64,000 bases of DNA. Origin: Thermoproteota archaeon. Its GTDB lineage: Archaea; Korarchaeota; JAOZGF01; JAOZFZ01. The stretch spans positions 602,449 to 666,448 of the forward strand of contig JAOZFT010000004.1 of NCBI GenBank assembly GCA_027492035.1, written 5' to 3'. Made by a program: the position numbers and the translations under genes. Numbering within the stretch: the first letter of the stretch is position 1; every line of letters begins with the position of its first letter. A model generated the notes under the pieces. The model saw only the letters and a list, made by a program, of their open reading frames with translations, was not told the origin of the DNA and did no database searches. Below are positions 3,686-29,646 of this stretch, in pieces.

Positions 3686-4555
3686 CTATGAAATTATATT
3701 TAGGGCTTTGTACATGTTTCTATAGCTTTTCTTCAATTCTTCATTGCTCATTTTGTTTTTCACTTTATTTATTTCCTTTATTGCTTTTCCTTGGTTAAAA
3801 ACCAGTTTTTTCACCAGATTTATTTTGTTTTCTATTTCCTCAATGTACTCTGTTAAATTTTTGTTTTCTGTTTGTAAAGTTAGGATTAGTGAAGGATTTT
3901 GGCTCAGTATTGCTTTCATCCAGAGGAGTAGAACTTTGAAGGTAGGCCCTGAAACCCCCTCTATTTCTTTTAAGTTTCTGTTTTCCAACATAAATGCCAA
4001 AACAAGACTTAAAAAATAGTTTAATGAAATGGTTAAACCCATTAATTCTTCATGTTTTCTTAAATCCAAAGTAATGAATTTACATTCATTAAATATCTCT
4101 TTTGCTTTGTCAAGTTCCTTTTCCTTGTCTTTCACAGGTACTAAAACAATTTTTTCCTGGTTTATTTCCTTTACTCCTGGCCCGAAAAGCGGATGAAGAG
4201 AAATAACTTGCACGTTCCTTTTTCCAATTTTTTCCAGTGCTTGGAAAACTTTTTCCTTCAACGAAGTTATCTCTACTATTGTCTTTATTTTTCCAGTCTT
4301 TAAGGTGGTTTCGTTAAAAATTTTGTTCAGTATTTTTGGGGTTTCTGGTATTGGTAGAGAAAGGAAAACAATATCAGCGTTTTCTACTGCTTTCTTAAAT
4401 GATTCTTCAAACTCTACTCCAAGCATTGAAGCTACTTTCTTTCCTTTCTCTTTATTTATATCATTAATCAAAACTTGGAACTTTTTATTTTTGAAATATT
4501 GGGTAAAAACTTGACCCATTGACCCCGCTCCACCTATAACTGCGATCTTAACCAT
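3686..4555 (-). CDS. tyrA: prephenate dehydrogenase
   Basis: This enzyme oxidatively decarboxylates prephenate to 4-hydroxyphenylpyruvate with NAD(P), the committed step to tyrosine. The N-terminal Rossmann motif is IGGAGSMGQ, followed by the acidic INDINKEKGKK, and the TyrA motif HPLFGPG sits near residue 128. The C-terminal half is helical, as expected for the dimerisation domain. At 289 residues it is the standard monofunctional size, with no fused chorismate mutase or ACT domain. It lies downstream of the aromatic operon on the same strand but is separated from it by the pilin gene and two spacers, so it probably has its own promoter. Confidence 0.88.
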   Translation of the reverse strand: MVKIAVIGGAGSMGQVFTQYFKNKKFQVLINDINKEKGKKVASMLGVEFEESFKKAVENADIVFLSLPIPETPKILNKIFNETTLKTGKIKTIVEITSLKEKVFQALEKIGKRNVQVISLHPLFGPGVKEINQEKIVLVPVKDKEKELDKAKEIFNECKFITLDLRKHEELMGLTISLNYFLSLVLAFMLENRNLKEIEGVSGPTFKVLLLWMKAILSQNPSLILTLQTENKNLTEYIEEIENKINLVKKLVFNQGKAIKEINKVKNKMSNEELKKSYRNMYKALNIIS

Positions 4556-4906: not shown

Positions 4907-5350
4907 TTAAGGTATAACTACTGATTTAGGATAGTCTTTCCCTGAAGCAGTGTGAACAGTTACTTCATATGTTATCCCTGACTGCCAGCTTCCGGATGTA
5001 ATGCTGGAAGGAGGACCAGATATTGTTATTTGCTGCCCACCACCAACAGCAACTGTGAAAGGAAGAGTAGGAGATGACACTTTACTATTATCTGGTATAC
5101 CATTCACGAAAACATCAGTAATTGTTACATCTGTTGAACCTGTGTTATTAACAATAACCTGTACATCAGTGCCGTCATAATATATAGCAGTTATTTCTAA
5201 CTTTTCATACCTGGTAAATGTCCCAACCAAACCTGTTGCCCATAACGCCACTGCTATGGCTATAGCTATTGATACAGCGACGATTATAACTGTTGCTACA
5301 ACAGGATGAATGCCTTCCCTATCTCCTATAAATAAAAGTTTCCTTCTCAT
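4907..5350 (-). CDS. archaeal type IV pilin-like protein
   Basis: The 147-residue protein has a short charged N-terminus (MRRKLLFIGDREG) followed directly by IHPVVATVIIVAVSIAIAIA. This is the class III signal peptide and hydrophobic assembly helix of archaeal pilins and archaellins (DUF1628-like N-terminus). Prepilin peptidase would be expected to cut near the REG/IHP junction. The rest is a beta-rich, Thr/Val/Gly-rich ectodomain (residues 45-147) with a VNNTGSTDVTITDVFVNG segment. No pilus ATPase, TadC or peptidase gene is nearby, so assembly proteins must be encoded elsewhere. A near-leaderless promoter precedes it. Confidence 0.85.
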   Translation of the reverse strand: MRRKLLFIGDREGIHPVVATVIIVAVSIAIAIAVALWATGLVGTFTRYEKLEITAIYYDGTDVQVIVNNTGSTDVTITDVFVNGIPDNSKVSSPTLPFTVAVGGGQQITISGPPSSITSGSWQSGITYEVTVHTASGKDYPKSVVIP

Positions 5351-5590: not shown

Positions 5591-7030
5591 TTAATTGGTT
5601 ATGGAGTTCAAAGCTTCACAGAATTCTTTTAAACCTAGAAATAAATCTTCCTTTCTAGTTGAAACGTTGATTCTTATGAATTCGGTGTATTTTTGGCCGA
5701 ACGCTGTACCAGGGGCGACGGCAACTCTCTTCTTTTCAAGTAACTTTTCAGCGAAATCTAAACTATTAAACTTGTCTTTTAAAACTTTAATGAAGAAGTA
5801 AAGCCCGCCTTCAGGCTTCATGTACTTCACTGGTTGATTCTTCAATAATTTATCAGTTAATGAAACATTTCCTTTCATGAACTCCTTGTATTTCTTTTCC
5901 TTTTCTGTTTCCAAAACAGCTAAACCTGCTTTTTGGATAAATGGAGGTACACAAGTTACTGTTAAGGAAATAAGCGAAGAAATTTTGTCAATGATCTCCT
6001 TCTTTCCAATGGCGTAACCTAATCTAAAACCGGTCATTCCATAAGTTTTAGAGAAGGAGTCAACATAAATTGTGTTTTCGTAATTGTATTCCAAAACTGT
6101 TTTGAAAGGTTTAAAAGTTAATTTTGAGTATGTTTCATCAGCTAAAACCAGTAACTTTTTCTCTTCAGCTAACTGAACTATTTCCTCAAGTTCTTTTTCC
6201 CCATAAATTTTCCCTGTAGGGTTGCAAGGGTTATTAATAATTATCATTTTGGTGTTTTCATCGATTTCTTCTTTAAGTTTCTCCGAATCTATCCTCCATC
6301 CTTTCTCAAGCTCTGTATTTATTTCCCCAATTAATCCTTTTGCTTTCATTGTTAAGCTTCCATAAACAGGCCATGAAGGATTAAAGATTATTACCTTCTC
6401 CCCAGGTTTAATGTTGGTTGTTATTGATGCATAAATACCAAATTTGCCTCCAGGAGTTAAAACTATATTTTCATTTGCGAAGTCTAAACTGTTTTCCTCA
6501 TTCACTTTCTCAATTATTGCTTTCTTAACTTCTTCTAAACCCGTAGGTGAGGAATAACTCATGTTTTTTTTGGTTAATGAGTCTTTTAAGGCATTAATTG
6601 CTTCTTCAGGTGGGCCGTAACAGGGTTCACCTACTTCTAGATGCACAACTTTTTTTCCAAGTGTTTCAAGCTCTTTAGCCTTTATGAATAAATTATAAAA
6701 AGCCTTACTTCTTTCTTCTGCCTTAAACCCTTGAATTCTCCTTGATTCATTAATTACTATACCTAATACTGTTAAAATATACTCTTTCTCTTTCCTGCTC
6801 ATTTCTAACTTTTCAAGAACTCCCTTTATTAATTCATTTTCCCTTTTAACATCTAAAACAGGTAAGTTTCTTTCCTTTTTTAGTTTCCCCACTTCCTCAA
6901 CCAACTTTAGCCTCTTCAGTAAAAGAGCTGCTGTACTTAAGGTAACGTCATCTATTTCCTGTCTCCTTTTCTTTATTTCTGCATAGCTTCTGTTCAGGTT
7001 CAATTTTTCTCCTTTGGTTTTAGAGGACAT
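5591..7030 (-). CDS. chorismate mutase-aminotransferase fusion protein
   Basis: This 479-residue protein appears to join two enzymes. Residues about 13-100 form an AroQ-type helical chorismate mutase (IKKRRQEIDDVT, LLLKRLKLVEEVGKLK, then VKRENELIKGVLE), which would turn chorismate into prephenate. Residues about 105-479 form a fold-type I class I aminotransferase: LEVGEPCYGP, NNPCNPTG, ADETYSKL, and SFSKTYGMTGFRLGY with PLP lysine near K328. The partner suggests that the aminotransferase acts on prephenate or on phenylpyruvate/hydroxyphenylpyruvate. Its start overlaps the end of aroC by 11 bases, so translation is probably coupled, and it is the last gene of the aromatic operon. Substrate specificity is inferred from context. 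Confidence 0.85.
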   Translation of the reverse strand: MSSKTKGEKLNLNRSYAEIKKRRQEIDDVTLSTAALLLKRLKLVEEVGKLKKERNLPVLDVKRENELIKGVLEKLEMSRKEKEYILTVLGIVINESRRIQGFKAEERSKAFYNLFIKAKELETLGKKVVHLEVGEPCYGPPEEAINALKDSLTKKNMSYSSPTGLEEVKKAIIEKVNEENSLDFANENIVLTPGGKFGIYASITTNIKPGEKVIIFNPSWPVYGSLTMKAKGLIGEINTELEKGWRIDSEKLKEEIDENTKMIIINNPCNPTGKIYGEKELEEIVQLAEEKKLLVLADETYSKLTFKPFKTVLEYNYENTIYVDSFSKTYGMTGFRLGYAIGKKEIIDKISSLISLTVTCVPPFIQKAGLAVLETEKEKKYKEFMKGNVSLTDKLLKNQPVKYMKPEGGLYFFIKVLKDKFNSLDFAEKLLEKKRVAVAPGTAFGQKYTEFIRINVSTRKEDLFLGLKEFCEALNSITN

Positions 7031-8114
7031 TTTTTAAGACCCCTGCCTTCAAACAATTATCTACTATAACCAAGTTTGTTATGCTTTCAACTACAGGTAC
7101 AGCTCTAGGGACTATGCAAGGATCATGTCTTCCCCTCAGAACCATTATTTCCTCCTTCATCTCCTTTAAATTAACTGTATTTTGGGGTTTGCTTATTGAG
7201 GGGGTGGGTTTAAAGAATACCTTAAATGTTAAAGGCATTCCTGTACTTAAACCTCCAAGGACGCCTCCTGCATTATTTGTCAAAGTAACTATTTTTCCCT
7301 TTCTCAAAACGTATTGGTCATTATTTTCTGAACCCTTCATTTCTGAAACTTTAAATCCTGCTCCAAACTCTACAGCTTTAACTGCAGGTATGGAAAAGAA
7401 TCCCTTACTAAGTTCAGACTCTAAAGATTGGAAAACAGGTTCACCTAATCCCACAGGTAAACCGTAAACGATTCCAGCCACAACTCCTCCCAGGCTGTCT
7501 CCCTCTTTCTTTGCTTCAATAATTGCCCTTTTCATTTTTTCAGCTGTTTCGGATTCTGGGCATCTAACAGGGTTTGAGTACCTTTTTTCACTTATTTCTT
7601 CTCTGCTTAACTTCTTAACCCTTATTTTTCCTACTTGGTAAGTGTAGGTTAAGGTCTCTATTCCTAGTTCCTCCTTAAGTATTTTTTTAGCTATTGCTCC
7701 AGCCATGACGAAAGAAGCTGTAATTCTTCCTGAAAACCTTCCTCCCCCCCTGTAATCATTGTATCCTCGATATTTCACTCTTGCAGGGTAGTCTGCATGT
7801 CCAGGCCGTGGTAAATCTTTTATTTCCATGTAGGGCCTAGAGTCCATCTTTCTGTTTTTTATAATCATTGCAATAGGCGCCCCGGTTGTGTAACCTCTGA
7901 AAACGCCTGAAAGGATTTCCACTTTATCTTTTTCAAACCTTGTAGTGGTTATTTCTGGATAAAACGGCTTTCTTAAGTCTAACTCCTTCTGAATATCCTT
8001 TTCATTTAGTTTCAAACCTGCTGGGCACCCATCAATCACAACCCCAACTACTTTGCCATGGCTTTCTCCAAAACTTAAGATTTTAAATCTGTCCCCGAAA
8101 ATGTTTCCAGTCAA
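7020..8114 (-). CDS. aroC: chorismate synthase
   Basis: The enzyme makes chorismate from EPSP with reduced FMN. Characteristic segments are FGESHG near residue 16, GGGRFSGRITAS (the flavin and phosphate-binding region), and RGRHDPCIVPRAVPVVE near the C-terminus. Length (364) is typical. The start is TTG with AGGTTA upstream. It sits between aroA and the chorismate mutase fusion, matching its step in the pathway. Confidence 0.96.
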   Translation of the reverse strand: MTGNIFGDRFKILSFGESHGKVVGVVIDGCPAGLKLNEKDIQKELDLRKPFYPEITTTRFEKDKVEILSGVFRGYTTGAPIAMIIKNRKMDSRPYMEIKDLPRPGHADYPARVKYRGYNDYRGGGRFSGRITASFVMAGAIAKKILKEELGIETLTYTYQVGKIRVKKLSREEISEKRYSNPVRCPESETAEKMKRAIIEAKKEGDSLGGVVAGIVYGLPVGLGEPVFQSLESELSKGFFSIPAVKAVEFGAGFKVSEMKGSENNDQYVLRKGKIVTLTNNAGGVLGGLSTGMPLTFKVFFKPTPSISKPQNTVNLKEMKEEIMVLRGRHDPCIVPRAVPVVESITNLVIVDNCLKAGVLKNVL

Positions 8115-8136: not shown

Positions 8137-9426
8137 TTAACTGTTTAAATCAATTATTTTCGCTCCTAACCTTCTCATTTCATTCAAAAAACCAGGATAT
8201 GAAACATCAACGCTTTCTTTTCCCTTAATAATGCTTCCACTCTCTAAGCCTATAGCTAATGAAGTGAAGGCCATAAACAGTCTGTGGTCGTTGTAGCTCT
8301 CAAAGACTCCTCCTTTTAATTTCTCTTTCCCCTTTATTACTAAACCATCTCTCTTCTCACTTATTTCCACACCTAACTTTGCTAACTCGGTCGCTAAGCA
8401 ATGTATCCTATCTGACTCTTTTTTTCTGGCGTGTTCAACTCCTTCAATAATTGTTTCCTTCTTGGTTTTAGTAGCTACAACCGCTAAAACAGGCAGTAAA
8501 TCCGGCGTGTCTTCTAAATTGAATTTTCCACCTTCTATTTCGCCAGCTTCAAAAAACAATTCGTTTCTTTTAACCTTTATGTTCTGCCCCATTTCTTTAA
8601 GGTACTCAATTATTTTCATGTCGCCTTGTGGCTCTGTGAAACTTAGTTTCCTCACTACTAAATTCGACTTTGAAACAGCTGCAGCCGCTAAGAAAAAAGA
8701 AATTGAACTGAAGTCTCCAGGAATTCTGAATTTTAAACCTTTTATTTCACTTTTAGGCTCCACCATAAACTCCTTAAATCCTTCATTTTCAACTTTTACA
8801 CCGTACTTTCCTAAAACATTTAAGGTCATTTCTATGTATGGTTTAGAGACTATTCTGTCCTTAACCAATATTCTCGTTTCTTCACTTGCCTTCACTGAAG
8901 AAATTAATAAAGCTGAAATAAATTGGGAAGATGTTCCTCCAGTAATTTCTGTTTCACCACCTGTAATTCCTCCTCCACTGACTATTACCGGTGGGAAACC
9001 ATTAAGTCTAGTTGACCATGCTTCCACACCTAAATCTTTGAGTGATTTAAGAAGAGGACCCATGGGTCTCTTTCTTAAACTTTCATCACCTGTTAAGACA
9101 CTGTATCCCTTTCTCACTAAACCTGAAATAGCTGTTAAGAAACGAATGGTTGTACCTGAATTTCCAGCATTTATCACATCTTCAGGGGTCTCTGGTAAAC
9201 CTATCCCCTCCACTACCAACTTCCTTCTTGTTCTTTTAACTTCAGCACCTAACTTCTCAACTCCTTCAATTGTTGCTTTAGTATCTTTTGAAAACAAAGG
9301 GTTAATTATTGTATTTCTTCCGGTAGTTAACAGCGAAACAACTACTGCTCGGTGGGTATAACTTTTACTTGGGGGGGCTTCAACTTTTCCCCTTATCTTC
9401 GTTGGGTAAACCTTGATTGAAGACAT
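8137..9426 (-). CDS. aroA: 3-phosphoshikimate 1-carboxyvinyltransferase (EPSP synthase)
   Basis: EPSP synthase joins shikimate-3-phosphate and phosphoenolpyruvate. Visible signatures are PSKSYTHRAV near residue 18, NAGNSGTTIRFL near 85, RKKESDRI near 340 and YNDHRLFMAF near 375, the classic set of the two-domain inverse alpha-beta barrel. Length (429) is typical. The start is ATG preceded by GGTGA. It lies 8 bases after the shikimate kinase gene in the operon. Confidence 0.96.
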   Translation of the reverse strand: MSSIKVYPTKIRGKVEAPPSKSYTHRAVVVSLLTTGRNTIINPLFSKDTKATIEGVEKLGAEVKRTRRKLVVEGIGLPETPEDVINAGNSGTTIRFLTAISGLVRKGYSVLTGDESLRKRPMGPLLKSLKDLGVEAWSTRLNGFPPVIVSGGGITGGETEITGGTSSQFISALLISSVKASEETRILVKDRIVSKPYIEMTLNVLGKYGVKVENEGFKEFMVEPKSEIKGLKFRIPGDFSSISFFLAAAAVSKSNLVVRKLSFTEPQGDMKIIEYLKEMGQNIKVKRNELFFEAGEIEGGKFNLEDTPDLLPVLAVVATKTKKETIIEGVEHARKKESDRIHCLATELAKLGVEISEKRDGLVIKGKEKLKGGVFESYNDHRLFMAFTSLAIGLESGSIIKGKESVDVSYPGFLNEMRRLGAKIIDLNS

Positions 9427-9434
9427 TTTTTAGT

Positions 9435-10307
9435 TCACCACTTCCCTGCTTTATTTTTTGAATTAACTTCTGTAACAATCAATTCCCCTTTGAATTCTCT
9501 CCATCTCTCAATAATCTCTCTACAGGTCTCTTTCTCACAAATAGCAAACATGGAAGGGCCTGTACCTGAAACTCCTGCTGTCAATGCACCTGTTTCTACG
9601 GCTTCAATTAAAGGAGCTGTTTCCAAGTTTAACACTGCGGAAATAAGTAATCCGTTCAAGAAAGAAGCTTCCCAATACTTTCCTTTCAAAGCTAAATTGA
9701 AAGCCTCCTCTGACAAGGAACTGAGCTTCTCCATCTTTTTCACGTTCACCTTAATTGTGTAAACCTTCTTTTTAGGTACTAATATCACAACCTTAAACTC
9801 CCTTAACTCCTCTCTCCTAATTAGTTTCTTCTTTAAGTTGTCTGTGAAAACTATTCCTCCGAAAAAGGAGGCGGATGCGTCATCTAAAGCCCCTGTAACT
9901 GAAACTTTAGCTTTTAAAGATGCCTCAACTCCTAACTTAACAGCTTCCAAGTCCTTTATTTTCCTTTTTAGGGCGTAAGCTGTAGCCAATACTGTAGCGT
10001 TAGCTGCAGCGCTTGAACTTTTCAACCCTCTTGCTATAGGTATTTCTGAAAAAGTTTTCACGCGGGCCCCATACTCGGTAGCTTTAAAATATCTCAAAGT
10101 TGCCTTTACCGCTTCCTTAACCAGTTCAGGGTTTTCTTGTGGATTGTTTAGGATTTCAACAATTACTTCCTCCTCTCCTTCAACAAGTTCCACTTCAGCC
10201 TTTGTTTCTAGTTTCACACCTATAGCCACTCCCTTCTTGGCAGGTATGGCATTCACCACTGTTACAGCTCCAAAAGCTCTGGCTCTACCTTTCAAATCCT
10301 TTTTCAA
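9435..10307 (-). CDS. aroK: archaeal shikimate kinase (GHMP family)
   Basis: This 290-residue kinase is not the bacterial P-loop AroK but the archaeal GHMP-superfamily replacement. The ATP-binding motif ARGLKSSSAAANATVLA is at about residues 90-106, and the C-terminal glycine motif GVSGTGPSMFAI is present. It phosphorylates shikimate with ATP. The TTG start lies behind GGTGA and overlaps the aroE end by 23 bases. Position between aroE and aroA supports shikimate rather than homoserine or mevalonate as substrate. Confidence 0.93.
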   Translation of the reverse strand: MKKDLKGRARAFGAVTVVNAIPAKKGVAIGVKLETKAEVELVEGEEEVIVEILNNPQENPELVKEAVKATLRYFKATEYGARVKTFSEIPIARGLKSSSAAANATVLATAYALKRKIKDLEAVKLGVEASLKAKVSVTGALDDASASFFGGIVFTDNLKKKLIRREELREFKVVILVPKKKVYTIKVNVKKMEKLSSLSEEAFNLALKGKYWEASFLNGLLISAVLNLETAPLIEAVETGALTAGVSGTGPSMFAICEKETCREIIERWREFKGELIVTEVNSKNKAGKW

Positions 10308-11175
10308 GTGTTTTCACCACGGCTTCTTTCATTTTCTTTAAAGGGGGTTTTTTTCCAGTCCATATTTTGAAAGAAGCTGCACCTTGCCCAACCAACATGT
10401 CTAATCCGTTTATTACTTCAGCCCCTTTTTCTTCAGCTAAGTGGAGAGTTTTAGTCTTTAATGGATTGTATATTACATCGAAAACTGTGTGGTATGGTTG
10501 AAAAAGATTTTTCGGGATCAATGATTCTTCAGTGTTTGGGTACATGCCTACAGGTGTAGCGTTAACAATTAAATCAGATTTAGGGATTGCTTTTTTGAGT
10601 GAGTTCATGTTTAGTTTTTCAGCTTCCAAAACAGTTTCTCCCCCTTTTAGTTTATTGAAGAACTTAATAAGTTCTTTCGCTCTTTCAACTGTTCTGTTAA
10701 GCACAATTATTTTTTCAACATTTTCTTTGATCAAGAAATAAATTACTGCTTTTGCAGCTCCTCCAGCCCCCAAAACAACAGCCCTTTTATTCTTCACTTT
10801 AATTTTACGCTTTCTAAAAGTGGCTTCCACGCCTTCAACATCTGTGTTGAAACCTATTAACTCACCATTCCTGTTCAGTACAGTGTTCACTGCTTTCATT
10901 TGTTGTGCCGATTCATCTAAGTCATCAAGGTAACGCATAATTTCTTCCTTGTAAGGTATTGTTACGTTAAATCCCCCAACTCCCAACCCCCTTAATCCCT
11001 CCACAACCTTTCTAAGCATGATCCTTTCAATATTGAACGCTAAATATACTCTGTTCATTTTCAACTCTTTGAAAGCTTCATTTTGCATTAGAGGGGAGAG
11101 GGAGTGGTTAACAGGTAACCCTATTAAACAATAAAGTGTAGGTGGCCTATTACTCTGTTCTACTGGCCAGAACAT
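10285..11175 (-). CDS. aroE: shikimate dehydrogenase
   Basis: The protein reduces 3-dehydroshikimate to shikimate with NADPH. Motifs are NHSLSPLMQN (substrate serines), GFNVTIPYKE with the catalytic lysine, NTDVEG, the nucleotide-binding GAGGAAKA near residue 137, and NATPVGM. Length (296) is normal. The start overlaps the aroD end by 26 bases; a few N-terminal residues may belong to a later start. Confidence 0.95.
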   Translation of the reverse strand: MFWPVEQSNRPPTLYCLIGLPVNHSLSPLMQNEAFKELKMNRVYLAFNIERIMLRKVVEGLRGLGVGGFNVTIPYKEEIMRYLDDLDESAQQMKAVNTVLNRNGELIGFNTDVEGVEATFRKRKIKVKNKRAVVLGAGGAAKAVIYFLIKENVEKIIVLNRTVERAKELIKFFNKLKGGETVLEAEKLNMNSLKKAIPKSDLIVNATPVGMYPNTEESLIPKNLFQPYHTVFDVIYNPLKTKTLHLAEEKGAEVINGLDMLVGQGAASFKIWTGKKPPLKKMKEAVVKTLEKGFER

Positions 11176-11857
11176 TTAGAAAACCTCTTAACTCATTGAT
11201 GGAGGGCTGTCCAGGAGCTGCTTTTTCATTCGGTAATGAGCAGTATGTGAAGGGAGCGCCTAAATAAACACCTAAAACTCTTGAAATTAAACCTAAACTG
11301 CCCATGCAGAAAGCTATTAATTTCTTCCTTTTCACCTTGTACAGGTTCAAAATTTTCAGGTTGTCGCTTGTTTCTTTGGCAAATGTAACAATTTTCGCAA
11401 TGTCCCCTTTACTTTCTGCATCTTTTAACTTTTCATTAAGTGATCCTTCTTCAGGAGTCCCTGTGAAGTCATGGTGTGAAGCAATAACCTCTACTCCTTT
11501 TTCATCCATTAAGTCTAGGAGTGAAGGATTATCTTTTATGGTTTCAATTTCTAAATCGAAGAAGTGAGGGCTAAGCTCCGTTACTTTTCTCACAATTTCT
11601 AGCCTTTCCTTTTCCTGTCCCCTAAAATAACCTCCTTCCTCCTTTCTTCTAACTGTAAAAATAAACTTTGTCTCTTCTCCAAAATCGTGCAGTGTTTCAG
11701 CTATCTCTGAAAAGTTTTTTGATTCTTTAAAATTGAAAATGTCCCACCTAACCTCAACGTATTTGACACGGTATTTTCCTGTTTTTGAAAGCAGAAACTT
11801 GAGCTGTCCAGTTTTTTCAGGCATTAATGTAACACAAATTTTATCTGTAAGGTTCAT
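11150..11857 (-). CDS. aroD: 3-dehydroquinate dehydratase, type I
   Basis: This is a class I Schiff-base dehydroquinase of 235 residues. It has VEVRWDIF at the start of the barrel, ASHHDFTGTP with the catalytic histidine, IAKIVTFAK with the Schiff-base lysine, and YCSLPNEKAAPGQP at the lid. It dehydrates 3-dehydroquinate to 3-dehydroshikimate. It stands alone rather than being fused to aroE as in some bacteria and plants, but overlaps aroE. Confidence 0.93.
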   Translation of the reverse strand: MNLTDKICVTLMPEKTGQLKFLLSKTGKYRVKYVEVRWDIFNFKESKNFSEIAETLHDFGEETKFIFTVRRKEEGGYFRGQEKERLEIVRKVTELSPHFFDLEIETIKDNPSLLDLMDEKGVEVIASHHDFTGTPEEGSLNEKLKDAESKGDIAKIVTFAKETSDNLKILNLYKVKRKKLIAFCMGSLGLISRVLGVYLGAPFTYCSLPNEKAAPGQPSINELRGFLNVLASRTE

Positions 11858-11869
11858 TCTTGACTTCCT

Positions 11870-12925
11870 TTATTTTTCAAGAATAAACTCTTCAACTTCC
11901 ACACCGAAATGTCTAGCTTTTTTCTGAGAAAAATAAACAAGTACTTTGTCTCCCTTTCTTATTTTCTTGACTGAAACTGGGTTTCCATCTTTATTGACTA
12001 AATTTACTGTTTCAGCGTTTTGAAGAAGAATAGAGCCTGTTTCTTCCCCCGTTTTAGCTTTCAGCATTATTAATGGCCTTTTCTCTATTTTCACCCTTCC
12101 GACTACCACCTTCTCTGATTCACCCTTGAAATTAACAGTTAACACTTCATCCCCGCTTTTTAACTCAGACAGGTACTTTGTCCTGTTTTCATCCACTAAA
12201 ATGTAGCTATGAATTGGTCCTGCATTAACTCTGAATGGTCTGGTTTCTACAAAGGGATTTTCAATTGTTTCGCTGTGTACAAGGAAAAGGAAATTCCCTT
12301 GGTTACCTACAAGCATTCCTTCTCCCTTGTTTAGCATTGTTACAGTGTCAACACATGCTCTGTCACCTAAACCTGTCTCTTTAACTTCAAAAACTTCTGC
12401 CTCCACTAATTTTAATTTTTTAACGCTTTTTATTTGTGAAAACAGGGTTTCAAGTTCACTTTTGTTTCTAATAGGCACAATCACCCCGTCAACCCCCTTC
12501 TCCAGTATAGTTAATAATGTACCTATCTTTTCTTTACCTTTCTCAACATAGATTTTTGTTCCTTTTTTCTGTAATTTAGCGATTAAGTTTTCAATTGGAA
12601 TTATTCTCCAGTTTAGCAGTTCCAGTATCACTGACTCAGCCCCCTCTTCTGCAGCCTCCACAACTTTTGCTTCCTCTTCCCCCTTCTCTATTTTTAAAGA
12701 AACAGAAAATTTCTTAACTTGCGGATCAACTTCTCTTTTGTTTCTGTAAACCACTACGTCTGCCTTCTTTGAAGGTGAAATTATTGTGGCTCCCTCTATC
12801 CTTCTTTCTCTGATTTCTTCAATGTAGAACTTGTCCACGCCATGTTTCATGGCCTCTTCAACTATAGGGACTGTTTCCTCAGTTAAACAAGGCAGTTTAA
12901 TAATTATCTTTCCAAGTTTATTCAT
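11870..12925 (-). CDS. aroB': 3-dehydroquinate synthase II (archaeal type)
   Basis: This is the archaeal NAD-dependent enzyme that converts 2-amino-3,7-dideoxy-D-threo-hept-6-ulosonate (ADTH) into 3-dehydroquinate, replacing bacterial AroB. Conserved segments are [19 protein letters not shown] and [14 protein letters not shown] in the middle and [15 protein letters not shown] at the C-terminus. The start chosen is the ATG preceded by GGAGG at about nine bases, giving 351 residues; an upstream ATG at 12961 would add 12 residues inside the previous gene and lacks homology. The gene overlaps the end of the ADTH synthase gene by 8 bases. Confidence 0.94.
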
Positions 12926-13706
12926 TTTTGAAAGCCTCCAAAGCCTCCTTAACCGATGCATTTTCTAAAATTATCATTCTTAAACATTTGAGAAGTAAAG
13001 TTGGATTTTCAGCTTGGAAAATGTTTCTTCCAAAAGTTATTCCTGCAGCTCCAGCATCCATGGCTCCTTTAACCATTTTGAAAACATCCTCAACTGTTTC
13101 TTGTTTAGGTCCACCTGCAATCACCACAGGAACTAAACTTGATTCAACAACCTTTTTGAAACTTGCAACAGTTCCTGTATACGTTGTTTTAACTATGTCT
13201 GCACCAAGTTCCCCAGCTATCCTTGTTATGTGTGAAACAGTTGAAGGACTGAACTTATCTTTTATCTTTTCTCCTCTTGCATACATCATAGCTATCAATG
13301 GTAAACCGAACCTGTCACATTCATCAGCAACCCTTCCTAATTTAACAAGCATTTCATGTTCATTTTTTGCACCTATGTTTACATGTACAGAAACCGCGTC
13401 AGCTCCTAACCTTATAGCTTCCTCTATAGATGAAACTTGAACCTTAAAATTCGGTTTTAAACTTAAATCCGTGCTTGCTGACAAATGCATTATCAACCCT
13501 AGATTTGGCGGTTTTTCTAAGTTTCTTAGAACTCCTTTATGAACAATTATTGACGTTGCTCCTCCTTTCTCAATTTTTTCTATGGTTCCATATATCTCCT
13601 TCAACCCTTTAATTGGTCCCATACTTACTCCGTGATCCATGGGTACACAGATCATTTTTCCGTTCTCAGTTATCCTGCCTAAACGAATTATTTTTCCTAT
13701 ACACAT
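12918..13706 (-). CDS. aroA': 2-amino-3,7-dideoxy-D-threo-hept-6-ulosonate (ADTH) synthase
   Basis: This aldolase-like TIM barrel condenses aspartate semialdehyde with a deoxy-keto-hexose phosphate to ADTH, the archaeal entry to the shikimate pathway that bypasses DAHP. Segments seen are CVPMDHGVSMGP near residue 20, ADIVKTTYTGT with the presumed Schiff-base lysine, VPVVIAGGPK and GAAGITFGRNIFQ. Length (262) is typical for the MJ0400 family. A strong AGGTGG precedes the ATG. The upstream neighbours supply its substrate. Confidence 0.94.
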   Translation of the reverse strand: MCIGKIIRLGRITENGKMICVPMDHGVSMGPIKGLKEIYGTIEKIEKGGATSIIVHKGVLRNLEKPPNLGLIMHLSASTDLSLKPNFKVQVSSIEEAIRLGADAVSVHVNIGAKNEHEMLVKLGRVADECDRFGLPLIAMMYARGEKIKDKFSPSTVSHITRIAGELGADIVKTTYTGTVASFKKVVESSLVPVVIAGGPKQETVEDVFKMVKGAMDAGAAGITFGRNIFQAENPTLLLKCLRMIILENASVKEALEAFKNE

Positions 13707-13723
13707 TTCACTGACACTTCCAC

Positions 13724-14794
13724 CTATATGAAGCCTTTAACTTTCATTAACTCAGCTAAAAGTAGAACACATCCTGCAGCCCCCCTTATTGTATTATGTA
13801 CAAGTAAAGAGAAGAGTAATGTTTTCTCGTTTTTTCCATACCTTAACCTGCCGATTGTAACTGACATTCCTGGAACAGAGCCAGCTAACTTGTCAAATCT
13901 AGGTTGAGGTCTGTCTTTTTCTTCTCTAATTATTAACGGTTTTTCCGGTGCCGTAGGTAATTTCAGTTTCTGCGGTTCACCTATGAAATTCCTTATTTCC
14001 TCCTTTACTTCATCTAAATCAACTTTTTCCGACAGTTCCAAGTAAACATTTTCTAAATGTCCATCTTTAACAGGTACTCGGTTACATGAAGCATGTATCT
14101 TTACATTGTAATCTTTGAAGGAGTTGTTTTCAAGTCTTCCAAGTATTTTCCTTGTTTCATTCCCTATCTTTTCCTCTTCTTTTTCTATGTAAGGAATTAC
14201 ATTATCTATTATATCTAGTGAAGAAACTCCTGGGTAACCTGCCCCTGAAACAGCCTGTAAAGTGTTAACTACAACTTTTTCTACTCTGTACAAGTTTGTT
14301 ATCGGCTTCAAAGCCAGAGATAAACCAACTGTTGAACAGTTAGGGTCAGTAACTATGAAGCCTTCTGTTCCCAGTTCTCTCTTTTGTGCATCAATCACTT
14401 CAAGATGTTCAGGGTTAACTTCGGGTATAACTAATGGAACCATTTCATGGAGCCTGTAGGCGCTTGCGTTGCTTAAAACAGGGAACCCTTCCTTTGCAAA
14501 CTTAATTTCTACCTCCTTGGCTGCAGAGGATGGTAAGGACGAAAAAACAATGTCTACATCTAAATCTTTAGTGTTCACAGCCGAAATGTTCTTCTCTTTT
14601 ATTTCTTCAGGCAATTCGGTTGGTAACAGCCAGTTAACAGCTTCTCCATACCTTTTGCCGGCTGAACTGTAGCCGAACAATGTTTCTAGTTCAAAATAGG
14701 AGTGCTTATTTAACATGTCAACAAATCTTTGGCCAACTGCACCTGTCGCCCCTAGCAAAGCTACCTTCATCTTTCCCATTTCATCTTTCACCAA
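13724..14794 (-). CDS. asd: aspartate-semialdehyde dehydrogenase
   Basis: The enzyme reduces aspartyl phosphate to aspartate semialdehyde. It shows the NADP motif GATGAVGQRF, the catalytic cysteine in DPNCSTVG and the histidine in KIHASCNRVPV. Length is about 350 residues. Several starts are possible (TTG at 14794, GTG at 14791, ATG at 14779); GGAG lies at good distance from the first two. It overlaps the aspartate kinase end. Here its product feeds aromatic synthesis directly, as well as lysine, threonine and homocysteine branches. Confidence 0.95.
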   Translation of the reverse strand: MVKDEMGKMKVALLGATGAVGQRFVDMLNKHSYFELETLFGYSSAGKRYGEAVNWLLPTELPEEIKEKNISAVNTKDLDVDIVFSSLPSSAAKEVEIKFAKEGFPVLSNASAYRLHEMVPLVIPEVNPEHLEVIDAQKRELGTEGFIVTDPNCSTVGLSLALKPITNLYRVEKVVVNTLQAVSGAGYPGVSSLDIIDNVIPYIEKEEEKIGNETRKILGRLENNSFKDYNVKIHASCNRVPVKDGHLENVYLELSEKVDLDEVKEEIRNFIGEPQKLKLPTAPEKPLIIREEKDRPQPRFDKLAGSVPGMSVTIGRLRYGKNEKTLLFSLLVHNTIRGAAGCVLLLAELMKVKGFI

Positions 14795-16007
14795 ACTTTC
14801 TCCTTAATAAGTTTAAAGCCTCCCTCCTTCTACTCCAAGGTACGAAAAGCCTGATTGAGGAATGGATTGTAAGTAAACCAAAAACATTTATCTTAGCCTC
14901 AGCTAAAGGCGAAACTGCTCTAGCTATAACTCCAGGTGTCGTCTCAAGTTTTTTACCTTTTAAAGTAACTAGTGCTAAATTCTCTATTGTTGAAATAGCC
15001 TTGACAGCATTTTCCCTTCCTCTGTTGTCTATTACTTCATGTAATTTATTCAAGATTTCACTGGGGTTTCCATCAACATAGAAAATAACTGCCTTCTCCT
15101 CTGTTGAAATCGCAAGTATTTTCCCTTTGCTTAACTGAACCTTTTCAGTTAAAACTTTGAGGGTTTCAGGCTTACTTGCAGCTTTCCCTACCACCGTCAC
15201 CATGCAAACCGGTTTATTATAGCTTGTTAAACTGAAACTTAAAGCATCTCCCTCAATTACAGTTCCTCCATTCGTTAAGGATCCGTTGCTGATTCCTACA
15301 ATCCTTATCTTCATTCCCTTAAGTATATACTTCAAAGCCTTGTTAGCTATAACCTTTGCTCCACTTAAAGTTAAATAAGAAGCTTCTTCCACATTTATTT
15401 TGTTAAGTAATTTAGCGTTTTTCACTTTAGCCGGATCTGCAGTATAAAAGCCTTCAACATCCTTGACTAAAACAACTTCTTTCAAACCTAAACAGCTTGC
15501 AAGAACAACAGCAGTTAAGTCACTGCCTCCTCTACCCATAGTAGTTATTTCTCCCTTTTCTGTTTTGCCTAAGAAGCCACAAATTACAATATTATATCCT
15601 TTCTCAAGTAAAGGCTTAAACTCGTTTCGAATTTTCAATTTACATTTCTTTATTAACGGGTTTGCGTTACCGAAAACATTGTCTGTTATTATTGGCCAAA
15701 GTTTAGATGAAGGAGTAATTAATTCTATTTTTACATTCATTGTTTTCAAAGTGGAGTAAAGCAGTTTAGCAGCTAACTCTTCACCAGAAGACATAACTAA
15801 ATCCATGTCTCTCTTAGAGACTTCTTTAAAAGATGCTTTTTCAGCTAATTCAATGAGGCTGTCGGTCATGTTCTTTAAAGCTGAAACAACAATTACCAGT
15901 CTCTTCCCTCCATCAACCTCCCTTTTTACTAGTTCCGCAACTTTCCTTATTGATTTCCAGTCGGTTAGCACAGAACCTCCGAACTTAACCACTGATAAGT
16001 TCTTCAC
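14781..16007 (-). CDS. lysC: aspartate kinase with C-terminal ACT region
   Basis: This amino-acid kinase phosphorylates aspartate. It begins with VVKFGGSVLTD, contains TMGRGGSDLTAV near residue 160, and ends with two ACT-like segments (about 265-408) likely to bind an effector amino acid. The GTG start is favoured because GGAGGAGGT lies five bases upstream; an in-frame TTG at 16022 would place that ribosome-binding site inside the gene. It is the first gene of the aromatic operon. Which effector (tyrosine, phenylalanine, threonine or lysine) controls it cannot be read from the sequence. Confidence 0.94.
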   Translation of the reverse strand: MKNLSVVKFGGSVLTDWKSIRKVAELVKREVDGGKRLVIVVSALKNMTDSLIELAEKASFKEVSKRDMDLVMSSGEELAAKLLYSTLKTMNVKIELITPSSKLWPIITDNVFGNANPLIKKCKLKIRNEFKPLLEKGYNIVICGFLGKTEKGEITTMGRGGSDLTAVVLASCLGLKEVVLVKDVEGFYTADPAKVKNAKLLNKINVEEASYLTLSGAKVIANKALKYILKGMKIRIVGISNGSLTNGGTVIEGDALSFSLTSYNKPVCMVTVVGKAASKPETLKVLTEKVQLSKGKILAISTEEKAVIFYVDGNPSEILNKLHEVIDNRGRENAVKAISTIENLALVTLKGKKLETTPGVIARAVSPLAEAKINVFGLLTIHSSIRLFVPWSRRREALNLLRRKFGER

Positions 16008-16102
16008 AGAAACCTCCTCCAAAACTATTTATTGTTAAGGAAAAGACTGTGTTGTAAATGAGAAGTCTAAAAAAAGAAGCAGCATAATCTTGGCCATTTA
16101 AG

Positions 16103-17988: not shown

Positions 17989-18804
17989 TCACCATTTACT
18001 TTTATAGCTTCCAATTACTTTAATGAATAAAGTATTTTCACGCAAGTCCTTTAATGCTTCAGAAATTTTCCTGTCGCGTAAGTTCCCTTCTATATCAACA
18101 TAGAAAGAATAATTCCACGGCTGATCCTTTATAGGTCTTGACTCTAAATGTAACATGTTAATGTTTCTCTTGGCAAATGCCTCTAAGGCTTTGTAAAGAG
18201 CTCCAGGCTTATGTTCAGTTATAAAAATAAGTGATGTTTTATCGCTGCCATCTGAAATAAACAAATCTCTTCTTAAAATAAAGAATTGGGTGTAATTGTT
18301 TTCTGAGTCTTGGATGTTCTCCCTTAAAACTTTCATGCCGTAGAGTTCGGCAGCATATTTGCTGGCTATGGCTGCTGAATTTCTCTTGCCAGAACTTTTT
18401 ACCTCCATAACACTCCCTGCAGTGTCGAAACTAGGTATTATTTTGAAATTCATTTTTTCAAGGAAGTTTTTACATTGAGATAACGCTTCAGGATGAGAAT
18501 AAACGTATTCTATTTCATTAAGAGAAGATTCCGGGAAACCAATTAATACATGTTCAATTTTCAATGTAACTTCCCCGATTACATAAGCTTCCTCTTCAAA
18601 TAAAAGATCCATTACCTCCCTTATTCCTCCAGTTATGGAGTTACGTATGGGTAACACAGCAAAATCTATCTCCTCATTTTTTAAACCTTCAAATACATCT
18701 CGGAAAGTCTTGTATTGCTTGAACTCTATACTCTCCCTAAAAAATATTTTGGAGGCCTGTTCACTGTAGCAGCCCCTAACTCCTTGGTAACCAATCTTTT
18801 TCAT
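17989..18804 (-). CDS. pheA: prephenate dehydratase
   Basis: The enzyme converts prephenate to phenylpyruvate for phenylalanine synthesis. The N-terminal dehydratase lobes begin YQGVRGCYSEQA and include LPIRNSITGG. The C-terminal ACT domain (about 185-271) has the phenylalanine-binding signature HLESRPIKDQPWNYSFYVD and ends KVIGSY. Length (271) is normal for the monofunctional form. With tyrA and the chorismate mutase fusion, the window holds both branches from prephenate. It is 64 bases downstream of ilvE on the same strand and may be co-transcribed. Confidence 0.93.
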   Translation of the reverse strand: MKKIGYQGVRGCYSEQASKIFFRESIEFKQYKTFRDVFEGLKNEEIDFAVLPIRNSITGGIREVMDLLFEEEAYVIGEVTLKIEHVLIGFPESSLNEIEYVYSHPEALSQCKNFLEKMNFKIIPSFDTAGSVMEVKSSGKRNSAAIASKYAAELYGMKVLRENIQDSENNYTQFFILRRDLFISDGSDKTSLIFITEHKPGALYKALEAFAKRNINMLHLESRPIKDQPWNYSFYVDIEGNLRDRKISEALKDLRENTLFIKVIGSYKSKW

Positions 18805-24879: not shown

Positions 24880-26037
24880 TCATATTACCTCGTTTAAGAC
24901 TTCAGCTAAATCCTTCACTTCTATTTCTTCATCCTTCCCTATAACTTTTACTGCATCTGTTAAATTCATTAAACAGAATGGACAGGCAGTAACTATTATG
25001 TCCGGATTCAGTTTAGCCGCCTCCTTAGCTCTTGTAACTGCAGGTCTCTCCTTAGGAGGTTCTTCCATCCATATTCTTCCTCCTCCTCCCCCACAACAGT
25101 AACTGTTCTCTCTGTTCCTCCTCATTTCTACAAACTGTAAACCCGGAATTGACTTAAGGATGTTTCTGGGTTCATCATATACTCCGTTATGTCTTCCGAG
25201 AAAGCATGGGTCATGGTAAGTAACCTTTTTGTTTAATCTCCCCTTTATCTTCAATTTTCCCTCCTTTATCAGGTTCCAAATGAACTGTGTATAGTGTTGA
25301 ACCTCGATTTTGCCTCCAAATTCCTTATATTCCTTCTTAAAAACGTTAAAACTGTGGGGGGAGGTTGTAACCATCCTTTTTACGTTGTATTTTTCAAAGT
25401 TAGCAATGTTTTCTTCAGCTAACATTTCAAACAACCCCTTTTCACCAAGTTTTAAAACTCCGTCTCCACAACATTTTTCCTTGTTTCCAAGTATGAAAAA
25501 ATCAACATTTGCTTTCCTGAAAATGTTAACTATGGCTTTAGCAACTTCTTGGTTTCTGGTGTCGTAGGATGGTGTACAACCTACAAAATAAAGGACTTCC
25601 CCTGTTTCCCCTTTACTTGCATCTTTCAAACTTAAATCCTTACACCATTCTGTTCTCTTGTTTTCTAATCCTCCCCAAGGATTTCCGTTCCTGAATGTGC
25701 TTTCAAGCATGTCCTGAACAGTTTTAGGTATAAACCCTCCCTCAACCACTTTACTCCTTAACTCAGTAACTAAATCACTAATACTTATTTCACTTGGGCA
25801 TCTCACACTGCACTTGTAACATGATGTACACATCCATAAAGTGTCCTCTTCAAAGACAGGTTCAATGTATTCTTCCCTGAAAAGGGCAATTACTTTTCTT
25901 GGGGTGTTTCCCCAAACAGTTGGACATGAACCTGAACAAACTCCACATTGTAAACACTCCCTAATTTTCTGCCCCAAAGGTGAACTATAAATTTCATTCA
26001 GTAATTCCTCGACTTGAACATTAATTTTTCCAGCCAA
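24880..26037 (-). CDS. hdrD: HdrCB-like heterodisulfide reductase fusion (HdrD type)
   Basis: Residues about 20-80 carry two [4Fe-4S] motifs (CLQCGVCSGSCPTVWG and CTSCYKCSVRCPSE) as in HdrC. Residues about 150-385 carry two CCG cysteine-rich domains (EKCCGDG and ENSYCCGGGGGR) as in HdrB, which bind the non-cubane Fe-S clusters that reduce disulfides. The order matches membrane HdrD, but no HdrE is present; the soluble partner HdrA is in the same cluster. It probably reduces a CoM-CoB-type heterodisulfide or an analogous sulfur compound. The native substrate is not certain because no mcr genes are visible. Confidence 0.9.
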   Translation of the reverse strand: MAGKINVQVEELLNEIYSSPLGQKIRECLQCGVCSGSCPTVWGNTPRKVIALFREEYIEPVFEEDTLWMCTSCYKCSVRCPSEISISDLVTELRSKVVEGGFIPKTVQDMLESTFRNGNPWGGLENKRTEWCKDLSLKDASKGETGEVLYFVGCTPSYDTRNQEVAKAIVNIFRKANVDFFILGNKEKCCGDGVLKLGEKGLFEMLAEENIANFEKYNVKRMVTTSPHSFNVFKKEYKEFGGKIEVQHYTQFIWNLIKEGKLKIKGRLNKKVTYHDPCFLGRHNGVYDEPRNILKSIPGLQFVEMRRNRENSYCCGGGGGRIWMEEPPKERPAVTRAKEAAKLNPDIIVTACPFCLMNLTDAVKVIGKDEEIEVKDLAEVLNEVI

Positions 26038-26073
26038 TTTTCACCTTTCCTCCTTTCATCTTTTTAAAAACTT

Positions 26074-27195
26074 TTATGGGCTCTTTAAGAATTCTTCAAG
26101 CTCTTCTTCTTCTGCATAAATTAAAGGTACAGGTTCATCAATTTTTCTCCCCGGTTGATAATTAAATTCTTTCCTTGCTTCATTAGTGATGACTGTGAAA
26201 ACCTTTGACAGTTCAATGTCTTCAGGGCAGGCTTGTTCACATAAGCCGCAGTCTATGCATGAAACTCCCATATGAAGCATTCTTCCTAGGTGGAACTGGA
26301 TCTTAGCTTTTATTGAAGGAGTCGTTCCCTCTTCTACGGTCCACTTCAAGTACTTGTTGAAAACGAAGTCGTAGTCTTGTGAATCAAAGAAGCATTCTTT
26401 ACAGAAACAAATGGGGCATGCTTCCATACAGTTTTGACATTTGATGCAGTCTTTAAATATCTCCCTTAATCCCTCAACTCCTTTCACTTCCTCTCTAGAT
26501 TTCAAAACAAATTCATTATACTTCCCCCCTCTTTCTTTGATTATTTCAGTTATTGCTTCTTCCCTCTCTTTATCCCTGTTCGCTGTTAAACCTATCTTTG
26601 CCAGTATTATTTTCCCCTTCTCACTTTTTGCTTCAATGTATAACTTACTACTCTTCCCTATGTAGCCAAGGTTTATGTCTGTGTTTTCAGGTGTAGGTGA
26701 AGCACATATTTTGCAGTATGTTCTGAAGTCTCGGTTCTCCTCTCTTCTAAGGAATGAATCATAAAATTTCTGGTTAGGGTTTTCTCCCTTCTCAACCATT
26801 TCTTTAAATTTTAACACGTGAAATGTGCCGTAGCAGTCAGTACCTATTAAAACTACGTTTTCAAGTTTTATTTGTTCGAGTTTCGTTAACTCAATTACTG
26901 CCTTGACTTCGCAGGGTTTAGCTGTAACTCCTAAAGGTTTGGGTAAAGGGTTGTCCTTTGTTAGTTCAGATAAGTAAGTTGCAACGCTGAACCCTGGAAT
27001 AACTGGTGTGAAAAGATCTATGTTTTCAATTTCTGATTCTTTAGTGACTAATACCCTTCTAATCATTCCCTTCTCTTCCTTTACTTGCGTCAGTAAAGCT
27101 GTAACAACCCTTTTACTGAGCATTTCTTTGAGTACCTTTTTCGCCTCCTCATTTATTTTATCTATTGATTTATTTATTGAAGGTTCCTTACTCAT
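26074..27195 (-). CDS. F420-reducing hydrogenase/formate dehydrogenase beta subunit-like Fe-S flavoprotein
   Basis: The protein belongs to the FrhB/FdhB family: residues about 90-140 contain GVTAKPCEVKAV and VVLIGTDCYGTFH, typical of the F420 and FAD binding domain. A C-terminal ferredoxin part follows, with CIKCQNCMEACPICFCKEC and CIDCGLCEQACPEDIELS. It would pass electrons from reduced F420 (or another donor) to HdrA through MvhD. The ATG used has AGAGGAAG upstream and overlaps mvhD by 8 bases; an in-frame codon at 27222 would give a longer, less likely form. The extra C-terminal cluster-binding region makes it longer than minimal FrhB. Confidence 0.85.
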   Translation of the reverse strand: MSKEPSINKSIDKINEEAKKVLKEMLSKRVVTALLTQVKEEKGMIRRVLVTKESEIENIDLFTPVIPGFSVATYLSELTKDNPLPKPLGVTAKPCEVKAVIELTKLEQIKLENVVLIGTDCYGTFHVLKFKEMVEKGENPNQKFYDSFLRREENRDFRTYCKICASPTPENTDINLGYIGKSSKLYIEAKSEKGKIILAKIGLTANRDKEREEAITEIIKERGGKYNEFVLKSREEVKGVEGLREIFKDCIKCQNCMEACPICFCKECFFDSQDYDFVFNKYLKWTVEEGTTPSIKAKIQFHLGRMLHMGVSCIDCGLCEQACPEDIELSKVFTVITNEARKEFNYQPGRKIDEPVPLIYAEEEELEEFLKSP

Positions 27196-27661
27196 TTCTA
27201 TCTTCCTCTGAAATTGTCCCAAGTTTCTTTAAAGGGTTTTCACCTAGTTCCTTTATTTCTTCAGAAAACTTCTTCACTATCTCAGCATATTTCCCGCCTT
27301 CTGAAGCAGAAATCCATTCCAATTTAACCCTGTCTTCTTCTAGGTTTAAAGCCCTTAACATTGCTTTCAAAAGCCTGTATCTTTGATAAGCAAAGAAGTT
27401 TCCTCTCCTGTAATGGCAGTCACCTGGATGGCAGCCTGCAATCAAAACTCCGTCAGCTCCATCCAGCAAAGCCCTTAAAACATAAACAGGATCAACCTTA
27501 CCTGAACACGGAACCCTTATGGTGGCTATTGTGGGGGGATACTTTATCCTGCTTGTACCTGCTAAATCTGCACCTACATAGGCACACCATCTACAAAGAA
27601 AACCAACAATTGAAGGATTAAAATCATCCTCTCCACAACTTTCCTTCTTTTTTTTACTCAT
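27188..27661 (-). CDS. mvhD: MvhD-like iron-sulfur electron transfer subunit
   Basis: The 157-residue protein has the MvhD/VhuD pattern: FLCRWCAYVGADLAG near residue 22, RVPCSGKVDP near 50 and AGCHPGDCHYRRGN near 75. The five or six cysteines bind a [2Fe-2S] cluster that links hydrogenase or formate dehydrogenase to HdrA. No hydrogenase MvhA/G gene is nearby, so the FrhB-like protein is the likely electron donor. The ribosome-binding site is weak and the gene lies 17 bases after hdrA. Confidence 0.92.
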   Translation of the reverse strand: MSKKKKESCGEDDFNPSIVGFLCRWCAYVGADLAGTSRIKYPPTIATIRVPCSGKVDPVYVLRALLDGADGVLIAGCHPGDCHYRRGNFFAYQRYRLLKAMLRALNLEEDRVKLEWISASEGGKYAEIVKKFSEEIKELGENPLKKLGTISEEDRNE

Positions 27662-27678
27662 TTTTCTCCATCTCTTTT

Positions 27679-29646
27679 TTAGGGATAAGAGGTTAAACCT
27701 TCCAACTCCAAAAAAACCTGTTTGTGAGTGTATCCTTTATGCTGGATAGCTCCTGACCTGCAAGCGGCTGAACATGCTCCACAACCTTTGCAAAGTTCTT
27801 CCTGAACCACAGCAGTCTTTTTCTCTTCATCGAAAGTTATTGCTTCAAATGGACAAACTGAAATGCATGCTTTACATCCCGAACAAATTTCTTCGTTCAC
27901 TTCAGCTGTGAAAGCTTCAATTTCATATTCTCCTCTATCTATAAGTGACAATGCTTGAGCTGCAGCAGCTGATGCCTGTGCAACTGTGTCAGGAATATCT
28001 TTAGGTCCTTGACATGTCCCTGCTATAAAAATTCCGTCATTTGCTGTTGAAACAGGAGCTAATTTTGGGTGCTTCTCTAAAAAAAATCCGTCATTGCTTA
28101 AATTAAGTGAAAACAATTTAGCAACTTCTTTACTGTCTTTTCTAGGTTCTAAAGCAACAGCTAAAACAACCATGTCAACAGGTATGCGTTTCACGGTTCC
28201 AAGTAAGGTGTCTTCAAACTGAACTATCAACTTTCCTTCTTCTTCAGGTTTTTCAGCTACATCTGTTACCTCGGCAACCTTACCCCTTATGAAAGTCACT
28301 CCTTCACTTAAAACCCTCCTGTAAAATTCTTCATACCCTTTACCAAAGGCCCTTATGTCAATGTAGAACTCATAAATTTTTGCGTCAGGTATTTCCTCTT
28401 TAATAAGGTGGGCGATTTTCATTGAGTACATACAGCAAACCCTTGAACAATACTCGTGGAAATTCTTATCTCTACTTCCTACACAGTGAATTATGGCTAC
28501 GGTTTCAGGTTCCTTACCGTTTTTCAAAAGTATCTTTCCGACCGTAGGGCCTGAGGGACTGCAAAGTCTCTCAAACTCCAAACTTGTGATTACATTATCT
28601 AAAACTCCGTAACCATATTGGGGCATAACAGAAGGGTCAAAAACATCATAACCTGTGGCTACAATTATTGCTCCAACCTTAACCTCAACTATTTCATTCT
28701 TCTGTTCAAAATTAATGGCTTTAGCTGGGCAAAGTTTTTCACATGCTTTACATATTCCTTTAGTGAAGAAGAGGCAGTGTTCAGTATCTATAACTGGCAC
28801 ATTAGGCACAGCTTGAGGAAATGGTGTGTAAATAGCTTTCCTCATCCCTAACTTCATATCAAACTCGTTAGGAACCTTCACTGGACATTTAGCCTGGCAA
28901 GTACCACACCCTGTACATTTGTCAACATCCACAAACCTAGCTTTCTTCTTTATTTTCACGATGTAATTGCCTACAAACCCTGAAACATCCACAACTTCGC
29001 TGTAAGTTAAAAGTTCAATGTTTTCATGCTGCCCCACAGCAGACATTTTAGGTGTTAAAATACAGGATGAACAATCCAGTGTAGGGAATGTTTTATCTAA
29101 TTGGGCCATGTGTCCTCCTATACTTGGTTCTTTTTCCACTAAATACACTTTCCTTCCTGCATCTGCCACTGTCAAAGCTGCTTCAATTCCAGCTATCCCT
29201 CCACCCACCACCAAAACAGCAGGTGTAACCGGAACCTTCCTTGTTTTTAATGGAACATGTTGCTTTACTCTATTTATTCCGGCGACAACAAGCTTTATCG
29301 CTTTCTCAGTCGCTTTTTCGCGGTTATCATGAACCCATGAACACTGCTCCCTAATGTTAACGTGTTGGTAAAGGAAAGGACTTAATCCAGCACTTTCACA
29401 AACTTTTTTAAAAGTTTTTTCATGCAGTAAAGGGGAGCATGAGGCAACAACTACCGAGTTTAAACCGTATCTCTTTATGTCCTCCCTAATTAAGTCCTGG
29501 CCCGGGTCTGAACACATATATAAGTAATGTTTAGCTACAACCACTCCTTCAATAGAAGAAACGGTTTCAGTAACTTTTTCAACATCAACAGTTGCTGCGA
29601 TGTTGTTTCCACAATGACAAATATAGACCCCGATCCTTCTATTCAT
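27679..29646 (-). CDS. hdrA: heterodisulfide reductase subunit A, flavin-based bifurcating
   Basis: The 655-residue flavoprotein starts with VYICHCGNNIAATVDV. It has the FAD motif VVGGGIAGIEAALTVADAG near 150, the CSSCILTPKM cysteine group, a ferredoxin insert CTGCGTCQAKCP near 240, and two C-terminal [4Fe-4S] motifs (CSGCKACISVCP and CKGCGACSAACR). HdrA splits electron pairs between a disulfide (through HdrB) and ferredoxin. It is first in a four-gene leftward operon with MvhD, the FrhB-like protein and HdrCB. A palindrome overlaps its predicted transcription start. Confidence 0.95.
   Translation of the reverse strand: MNRRIGVYICHCGNNIAATVDVEKVTETVSSIEGVVVAKHYLYMCSDPGQDLIREDIKRYGLNSVVVASCSPLLHEKTFKKVCESAGLSPFLYQHVNIREQCSWVHDNREKATEKAIKLVVAGINRVKQHVPLKTRKVPVTPAVLVVGGGIAGIEAALTVADAGRKVYLVEKEPSIGGHMAQLDKTFPTLDCSSCILTPKMSAVGQHENIELLTYSEVVDVSGFVGNYIVKIKKKARFVDVDKCTGCGTCQAKCPVKVPNEFDMKLGMRKAIYTPFPQAVPNVPVIDTEHCLFFTKGICKACEKLCPAKAINFEQKNEIVEVKVGAIIVATGYDVFDPSVMPQYGYGVLDNVITSLEFERLCSPSGPTVGKILLKNGKEPETVAIIHCVGSRDKNFHEYCSRVCCMYSMKIAHLIKEEIPDAKIYEFYIDIRAFGKGYEEFYRRVLSEGVTFIRGKVAEVTDVAEKPEEEGKLIVQFEDTLLGTVKRIPVDMVVLAVALEPRKDSKEVAKLFSLNLSNDGFFLEKHPKLAPVSTANDGIFIAGTCQGPKDIPDTVAQASAAAAQALSLIDRGEYEIEAFTAEVNEEICSGCKACISVCPFEAITFDEEKKTAVVQEELCKGCGACSAACRSGAIQHKGYTHKQVFLELEGLTSYP

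Follow-up and report, generated by a model that had tools for sequence, protein, structure and literature searches.

The 64-kb window analysed here, i.e., the whole stretch of 64,000 nucleotides from a korarchaeotal genome, encodes a protein (CM-AT) that joins an AroQ chorismate mutase (CM) to a class I/II aminotransferase (AT). Judged by its residues, CM-AT is a real and catalytically complete fusion; it is a variant of the known AroQ fusions with a new partner. The CM-AT fusion is widespread, old and not unusual in Archaea. For the source organism we lean, by a little, towards a CM combined with a 4-hydroxyphenylpyruvate/phenylpyruvate aminotransferase; for ammonia-oxidising archaea, a CM combined with a prephenate aminotransferase is the favoured reading of the sequences. 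We infer both CM-AT activities as well as the AT substrate.

The CM-AT reading frame starts with ATG, contains no internal stop and lies on the minus strand, which an earlier note on this DNA had not given. Its start (ATG 7030-7028) overlaps the end of aroC (stop 7022-7020) by 11 bp. The features referred to below are the following.

3686..4555, minus strand: TyrA, prephenate/arogenate dehydrogenase, with Gln219 at the specificity position (soybean PDH1 residue 222)
5591..7030, minus strand: CM-AT, fused AroQ chorismate mutase and class I/II aminotransferase, 479 aa
5648..6652, minus strand: aminotransferase class I/II domain of CM-AT (residues 127-461, Pfam), PLP lysine K328
6731..6964, minus strand: AroQ chorismate mutase domain of CM-AT (residues 23-100; Pfam, 1ECM alignment)
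7020..8114, minus strand: AroC chorismate synthase (Pfam)
8137..9426, minus strand: AroA EPSP synthase (reading of the ORF; ortholog in the same operon of relatives)
9435..10307, minus strand: archaeal GHMP-type shikimate kinase (GHMP domains, synteny)
10285..11175, minus strand: AroE shikimate dehydrogenase (reading of the ORF, synteny)
11150..11857, minus strand: AroD 3-dehydroquinate dehydratase (reading of the ORF, synteny)
11870..12961, minus strand: 3-dehydroquinate synthase II (PF01959)
12918..13706, minus strand: ADH (2-amino-3,7-dideoxy-heptulosonate) synthase, DeoC/LacD aldolase family (PF01791, synteny)
13724..14794, minus strand: aspartate semialdehyde dehydrogenase (reading of the ORF, synteny)
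14781..16022, minus strand: aspartate kinase (reading of the ORF)
17989..18804, minus strand: PheA, prephenate dehydratase with ACT domain, upstream of the operon (PF00800, PF01842)

The earlier note had read an AroQ domain and a complete aminotransferase in one polypeptide, and both domains indeed score above the Pfam curated cut-offs: CM_2 (PF01817) matches residues 23-100 with 49.9 bits (cut-off 27) and Aminotran_1_2 (PF00155) residues 127-461 with 209.3 bits (cut-off 19.7). An assembly chimera is ruled out as the source of CM-AT, given the same full-length architecture in dozens of independent genomes. A single-sequence AlphaFold2 model of CM-AT reached a pLDDT of 36.7 and was left out of the fold searches.

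The window holds a complete archaeal-type gene set from aspartate to chorismate, transcribed in one direction and followed by CM-AT and then TyrA; the separate TyrA and PheA that the earlier note mentioned for the same region are both present. The order ADHS-DHQS II-AroD-AroE-AroK-AroA-AroC-CMAT-TyrA is common to relatives in several families. TyrA lies immediately downstream of CM-AT in nearly all relatives, and this order is conserved across phyla even where the remaining operon is lost; in five loci of family f158 no TyrA was found beside CM-AT. Between CM-AT and TyrA, the window carries a 147-aa ORF (4907-5350) with a pilin-like hydrophobic N-terminus and without a Pfam match. In archaeal genome G191 (locus L054), the module stands in an operon with what by eye seem to be bacterial-type DAHP synthase, DHQ synthase and shikimate kinase genes, not the archaeal ADH route. 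Elsewhere in the window (24880-29646), genes read as heterodisulfide reductase subunits, an MvhD/FrhB-like pair and an HdrA-like flavoprotein, possibly an electron-transfer cluster.

We compared the CM part with E. coli CM (EcCM, 1ECM), to which it aligns gap-free over 75 residues (query 23-97, chain 11-85). R23, R40, K51, D60, R63, E64, S96 and Q100 of CM-AT correspond to R11, R28, K39, D48, R51, E52, S84 and Q88 of EcCM, i.e., 8/8 active-site residues match, the first seven by alignment and Q100, just past the aligned 1ECM segment, by the same offset. Loss of these residues on alignment was what the earlier note had named as counting against its reading, which the intact set leaves standing. 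Nearly all fused relatives conserve the equivalents of R11, R28, K39, E52 and Q88. CM-AT is the sole PF01817 match in the source genome (~93% complete), in which no second CM was detected. Since the catalytic residues are complete and CM-AT is the only CM found, we infer that the AroQ domain converts chorismate to prephenate. Clear sequence relatives of this domain are the monofunctional archaeal AroQ CMs of Pyrococcus (1YBZ) and Methanocaldococcus (2GTV), which, unlike CM-AT, are stand-alone proteins.

A search for the same domain pair in other genomes, as the earlier note had proposed, found it across many archaeal families. Among 61 relatives, the full-length fusion occurs in the source's own family (G001, 50% identity), in another family of the phylum (G017) and in most members of genus g4. 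Among 394 archaeal genomes, it is present in G191 and in 11/11 genomes of family f8 that have a CM. We take f8 as an ammonia-oxidising family because archaeal AmoA was found in all six f8 genomes tested (6/6). Within the phylum of G031, 122 of 398 genomes match at 1e-72, nearly all with full-length fusions or split homologues, distributed over families f8, f173, f146, f158, f143, f170, f188 and f137. Family f42 likewise carries the fusion.

The AT part has a complete catalytic set, i.e., Y159, W220, N270, D298, Y301, K328 (the PLP lysine), R336 and R453 (reference set: Tyr70, Trp140, Asn194, Asp222, Tyr225, Lys258, Arg266 and Arg386). The same residues are found in nearly all relatives, with the exception of f42, which has Tyr for Trp140. 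A scan of the genome contigs found just distant stand-alone aminotransferases. The other ATs of the source genome resemble AspAT, AlaAT and HisC, and thus look as if they include no further dedicated aromatic AT in view.

To judge which substrate the AT would use, we turned to the adjacent TyrA. Schenck et al. 2017 describe that an acidic residue at TyrA position 222 confers arogenate activity, that Gln or Asn at this position accompanies prephenate activity, and that a Gln to Glu exchange at this position in an archaeal TyrA introduces arogenate activity (PMC5681985). In an HMM alignment, soybean residue 222 (N222 in 5T9E, D222 in 5T9F) falls on Gln219 of the TyrA next to CM-AT; N222 is the residue of the soybean prephenate dehydrogenase, and the acidic, arogenate-type residue is missing here. 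All Korarchaeota loci read (13/13) have Gln, f188 has Gln, and f42 Gln or His. Acidic residues prevail in f8 (Glu, 41/41), f173 (Asp, 5/6), f146 (Glu/Asp, 5/5), f143 (Glu, 4/4), f170 (Asp, 4/4) and f137 (Glu, 6/6); these genome counts are not independent, and counted by family an acid is found in 6/11 carriers. For comparison, 30 TyrAs from archaeal families in which the module was not seen have Gln in 21/30 and an acid in 7/30 cases.

With TyrA specificity judged from this one residue, the prephenate-type Gln is the reason for our 4-hydroxyphenylpyruvate/phenylpyruvate reading in the source organism. That is, the AroQ domain would convert chorismate to prephenate, TyrA and PheA would most likely both act on prephenate, and the 4-hydroxyphenylpyruvate and phenylpyruvate that they form would most likely be aminated by the AT, a PLP enzyme for which glutamate or aspartate is the likely amino donor. 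One polypeptide would then supply the first and the last step, with TyrA or PheA acting between them. In relatives with Glu or Asp in the adjacent TyrA, the same AT would aminate prephenate to arogenate; prephenate transamination is suggested for six other families because of the acidic TyrA residue there. Points against our reading for the source organism include that a 4-hydroxyphenylpyruvate AT, unlike a prephenate AT, would not catalyse the step that directly follows CM, and that an AspAT-like paralog (L002) may instead serve as the aromatic AT.

The first of these points favours the main rival, which we consider possible but distinctly short of an even chance for the source organism, i.e., a chorismate-to-arogenate enzyme whose fused AT transaminates prephenate to arogenate, which is then used by TyrA and perhaps PheA. 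Here, the fusion would join consecutive steps, CM-AT lies directly upstream of TyrA, and TyrA residue 222 is acidic in the six families named above, compared to 7/30 elsewhere. On the other hand, Gln occupies this position in the source and in all Korarchaeota examined, and f42 has Gln or His.

The AT itself provides mixed evidence. Lys, Arg or Gln at Thermus AAT position 12 is said to mark the 1-beta AAT-type prephenate ATs (reportedly described by Giustini in 2019), and Arabidopsis Thr84 and Lys169 are reportedly the prephenate-AT residues according to Dornfeld in 2014. CM-AT has a Lys at or near the Thermus K12 position, which speaks for the arogenate reading, but the alignment there crosses a loop of variable length; at the same, unsafely aligned position the relatives from ammonia-oxidising archaea mostly have Asn or Gly. 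The equivalent of Lys169 is present (K196). The second contact, Thr84 or Thermus T16, is Phe in CM-AT and His in most relatives, such that the Thr84/Lys169 pair is incomplete, which counts against prephenate as substrate. At the Thermus K101 position, Korarchaeota and f137 have Lys, most others Arg and f143 a hydrophobic residue or Thr, and this residue does not track TyrA residue 222 across carriers. Altogether, the signature positions do not cleanly separate the carriers. Since the signature residues are mixed and partly lie in an unalignable loop, we do not claim membership of CM-AT in the prephenate-AT group. Arabidopsis PPA-AT (5WMH) and Thermus thermophilus AAT (1BKG) share fold family and catalytic residues with the AT of CM-AT, and the Lys at their K101/K169 position is also found in Korarchaeota; in contrast to both, CM-AT falls in a different clade, has Thr16/Thr84 replaced and is fused to a CM.

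The earlier note had suggested direct conversion of chorismate to arogenate. Given Gln219 of TyrA, this is not the favoured reading for the source organism; it may hold in relatives with Glu or Asp, i.e., ammonia-oxidising archaea and Caldiarchaeum-like genomes. Prephenate AT activity may even be ancestral because the arogenate-type TyrA residue is found in most module-carrying families. We tentatively consider, at not quite an even chance, that ammonia-oxidising and related archaea make tyrosine by a dedicated arogenate route, formed by CM-AT as a chorismate-to-arogenate enzyme and an adjacent arogenate-type TyrA; the TyrA of the source lineage would then have reverted to prephenate or would use arogenate despite its Gln.

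We consider it improbable that the AT serves as a housekeeping aspartate aminotransferase and that its fusion and operon place are incidental. The best PDB matches are named aspartate ATs and the best NCBIfam model is the archaeal aspartate AT, although its 278 bits are far below the cut-off of 550. Against this, the same genome carries a second AspAT-like gene, the CM-AT-TyrA order is held across phyla, and the fused ATs are separated from AspAT-like ATs as a clade of their own.

This clade also bears on the origin of the fusion. In six loci of f137 (L126-L131), three unfused genes for CM, AT and TyrA lie one after the other. A maximum-likelihood tree of the AT domain groups the fused ATs with those of f137 in one clade (100/98), separate from every stand-alone AT; within it f137 splits first and the fused ATs follow (98/94), i.e., f137 is sister to all fused forms. 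Two f143 genomes (L120:613-2028, L121:2289-3788) keep the AT behind an N-terminal segment without a Pfam CM match, in which the catalytic Arg/Lys/Glu/Gln are mostly gone. The pattern shows a single origin, in that a single gathering of the genes, a single fusion and a single CM loss would explain it. Although these two genomes illustrate that the CM part can decay while the AT is kept, a degenerate or merely dimerising or regulatory CM part is rejected as highly improbable for the source organism, given all eight active-site residues and the lack of a second CM match in its genome.

Fusions of AroQ to other enzymes of aromatic amino acid synthesis are known (PMC1173090, PMC11237513): a 2005 TyrA review lists fusions with TyrA, PheA and DAHP synthase, and a 2024 survey of archaeal fusions discusses CM-PheA and CM-PheA-TyrA. 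In the main text of that survey, the word aminotransferase is absent and the CM-AT pair unmentioned. Within the openly licensed literature, we found no paper linking CM to Nitrosopumilus, to Korarchaeum or to an aminotransferase domain. CM-AT resembles the E. coli P-protein (AroQ-PheA) and T-protein (AroQ-TyrA), Archaeoglobus TyrA-AroQ-PheA-ACT and AroQ-DAHP synthase in linking AroQ to an aromatic-pathway enzyme, and differs from all of them in that its partner is a PLP aminotransferase.

Little is known about which aminotransferase archaea use to make tyrosine and phenylalanine, or about the sequence of reactions involved. Having arisen once and occurring in all sampled ammonia-oxidising archaea, the CM-AT-TyrA module would assign an aminotransferase to the pathway. 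It also leads to the prediction that, within a single enzyme family, tyrosine synthesis switches between a prephenate and an arogenate route, and that a single TyrA residue reveals which of them is used. The module varies in length as well: in f170 and one f173 genus (L122-L125 and L101-L103), the linker between the two CM-AT domains is ~30-45 residues longer than usual.
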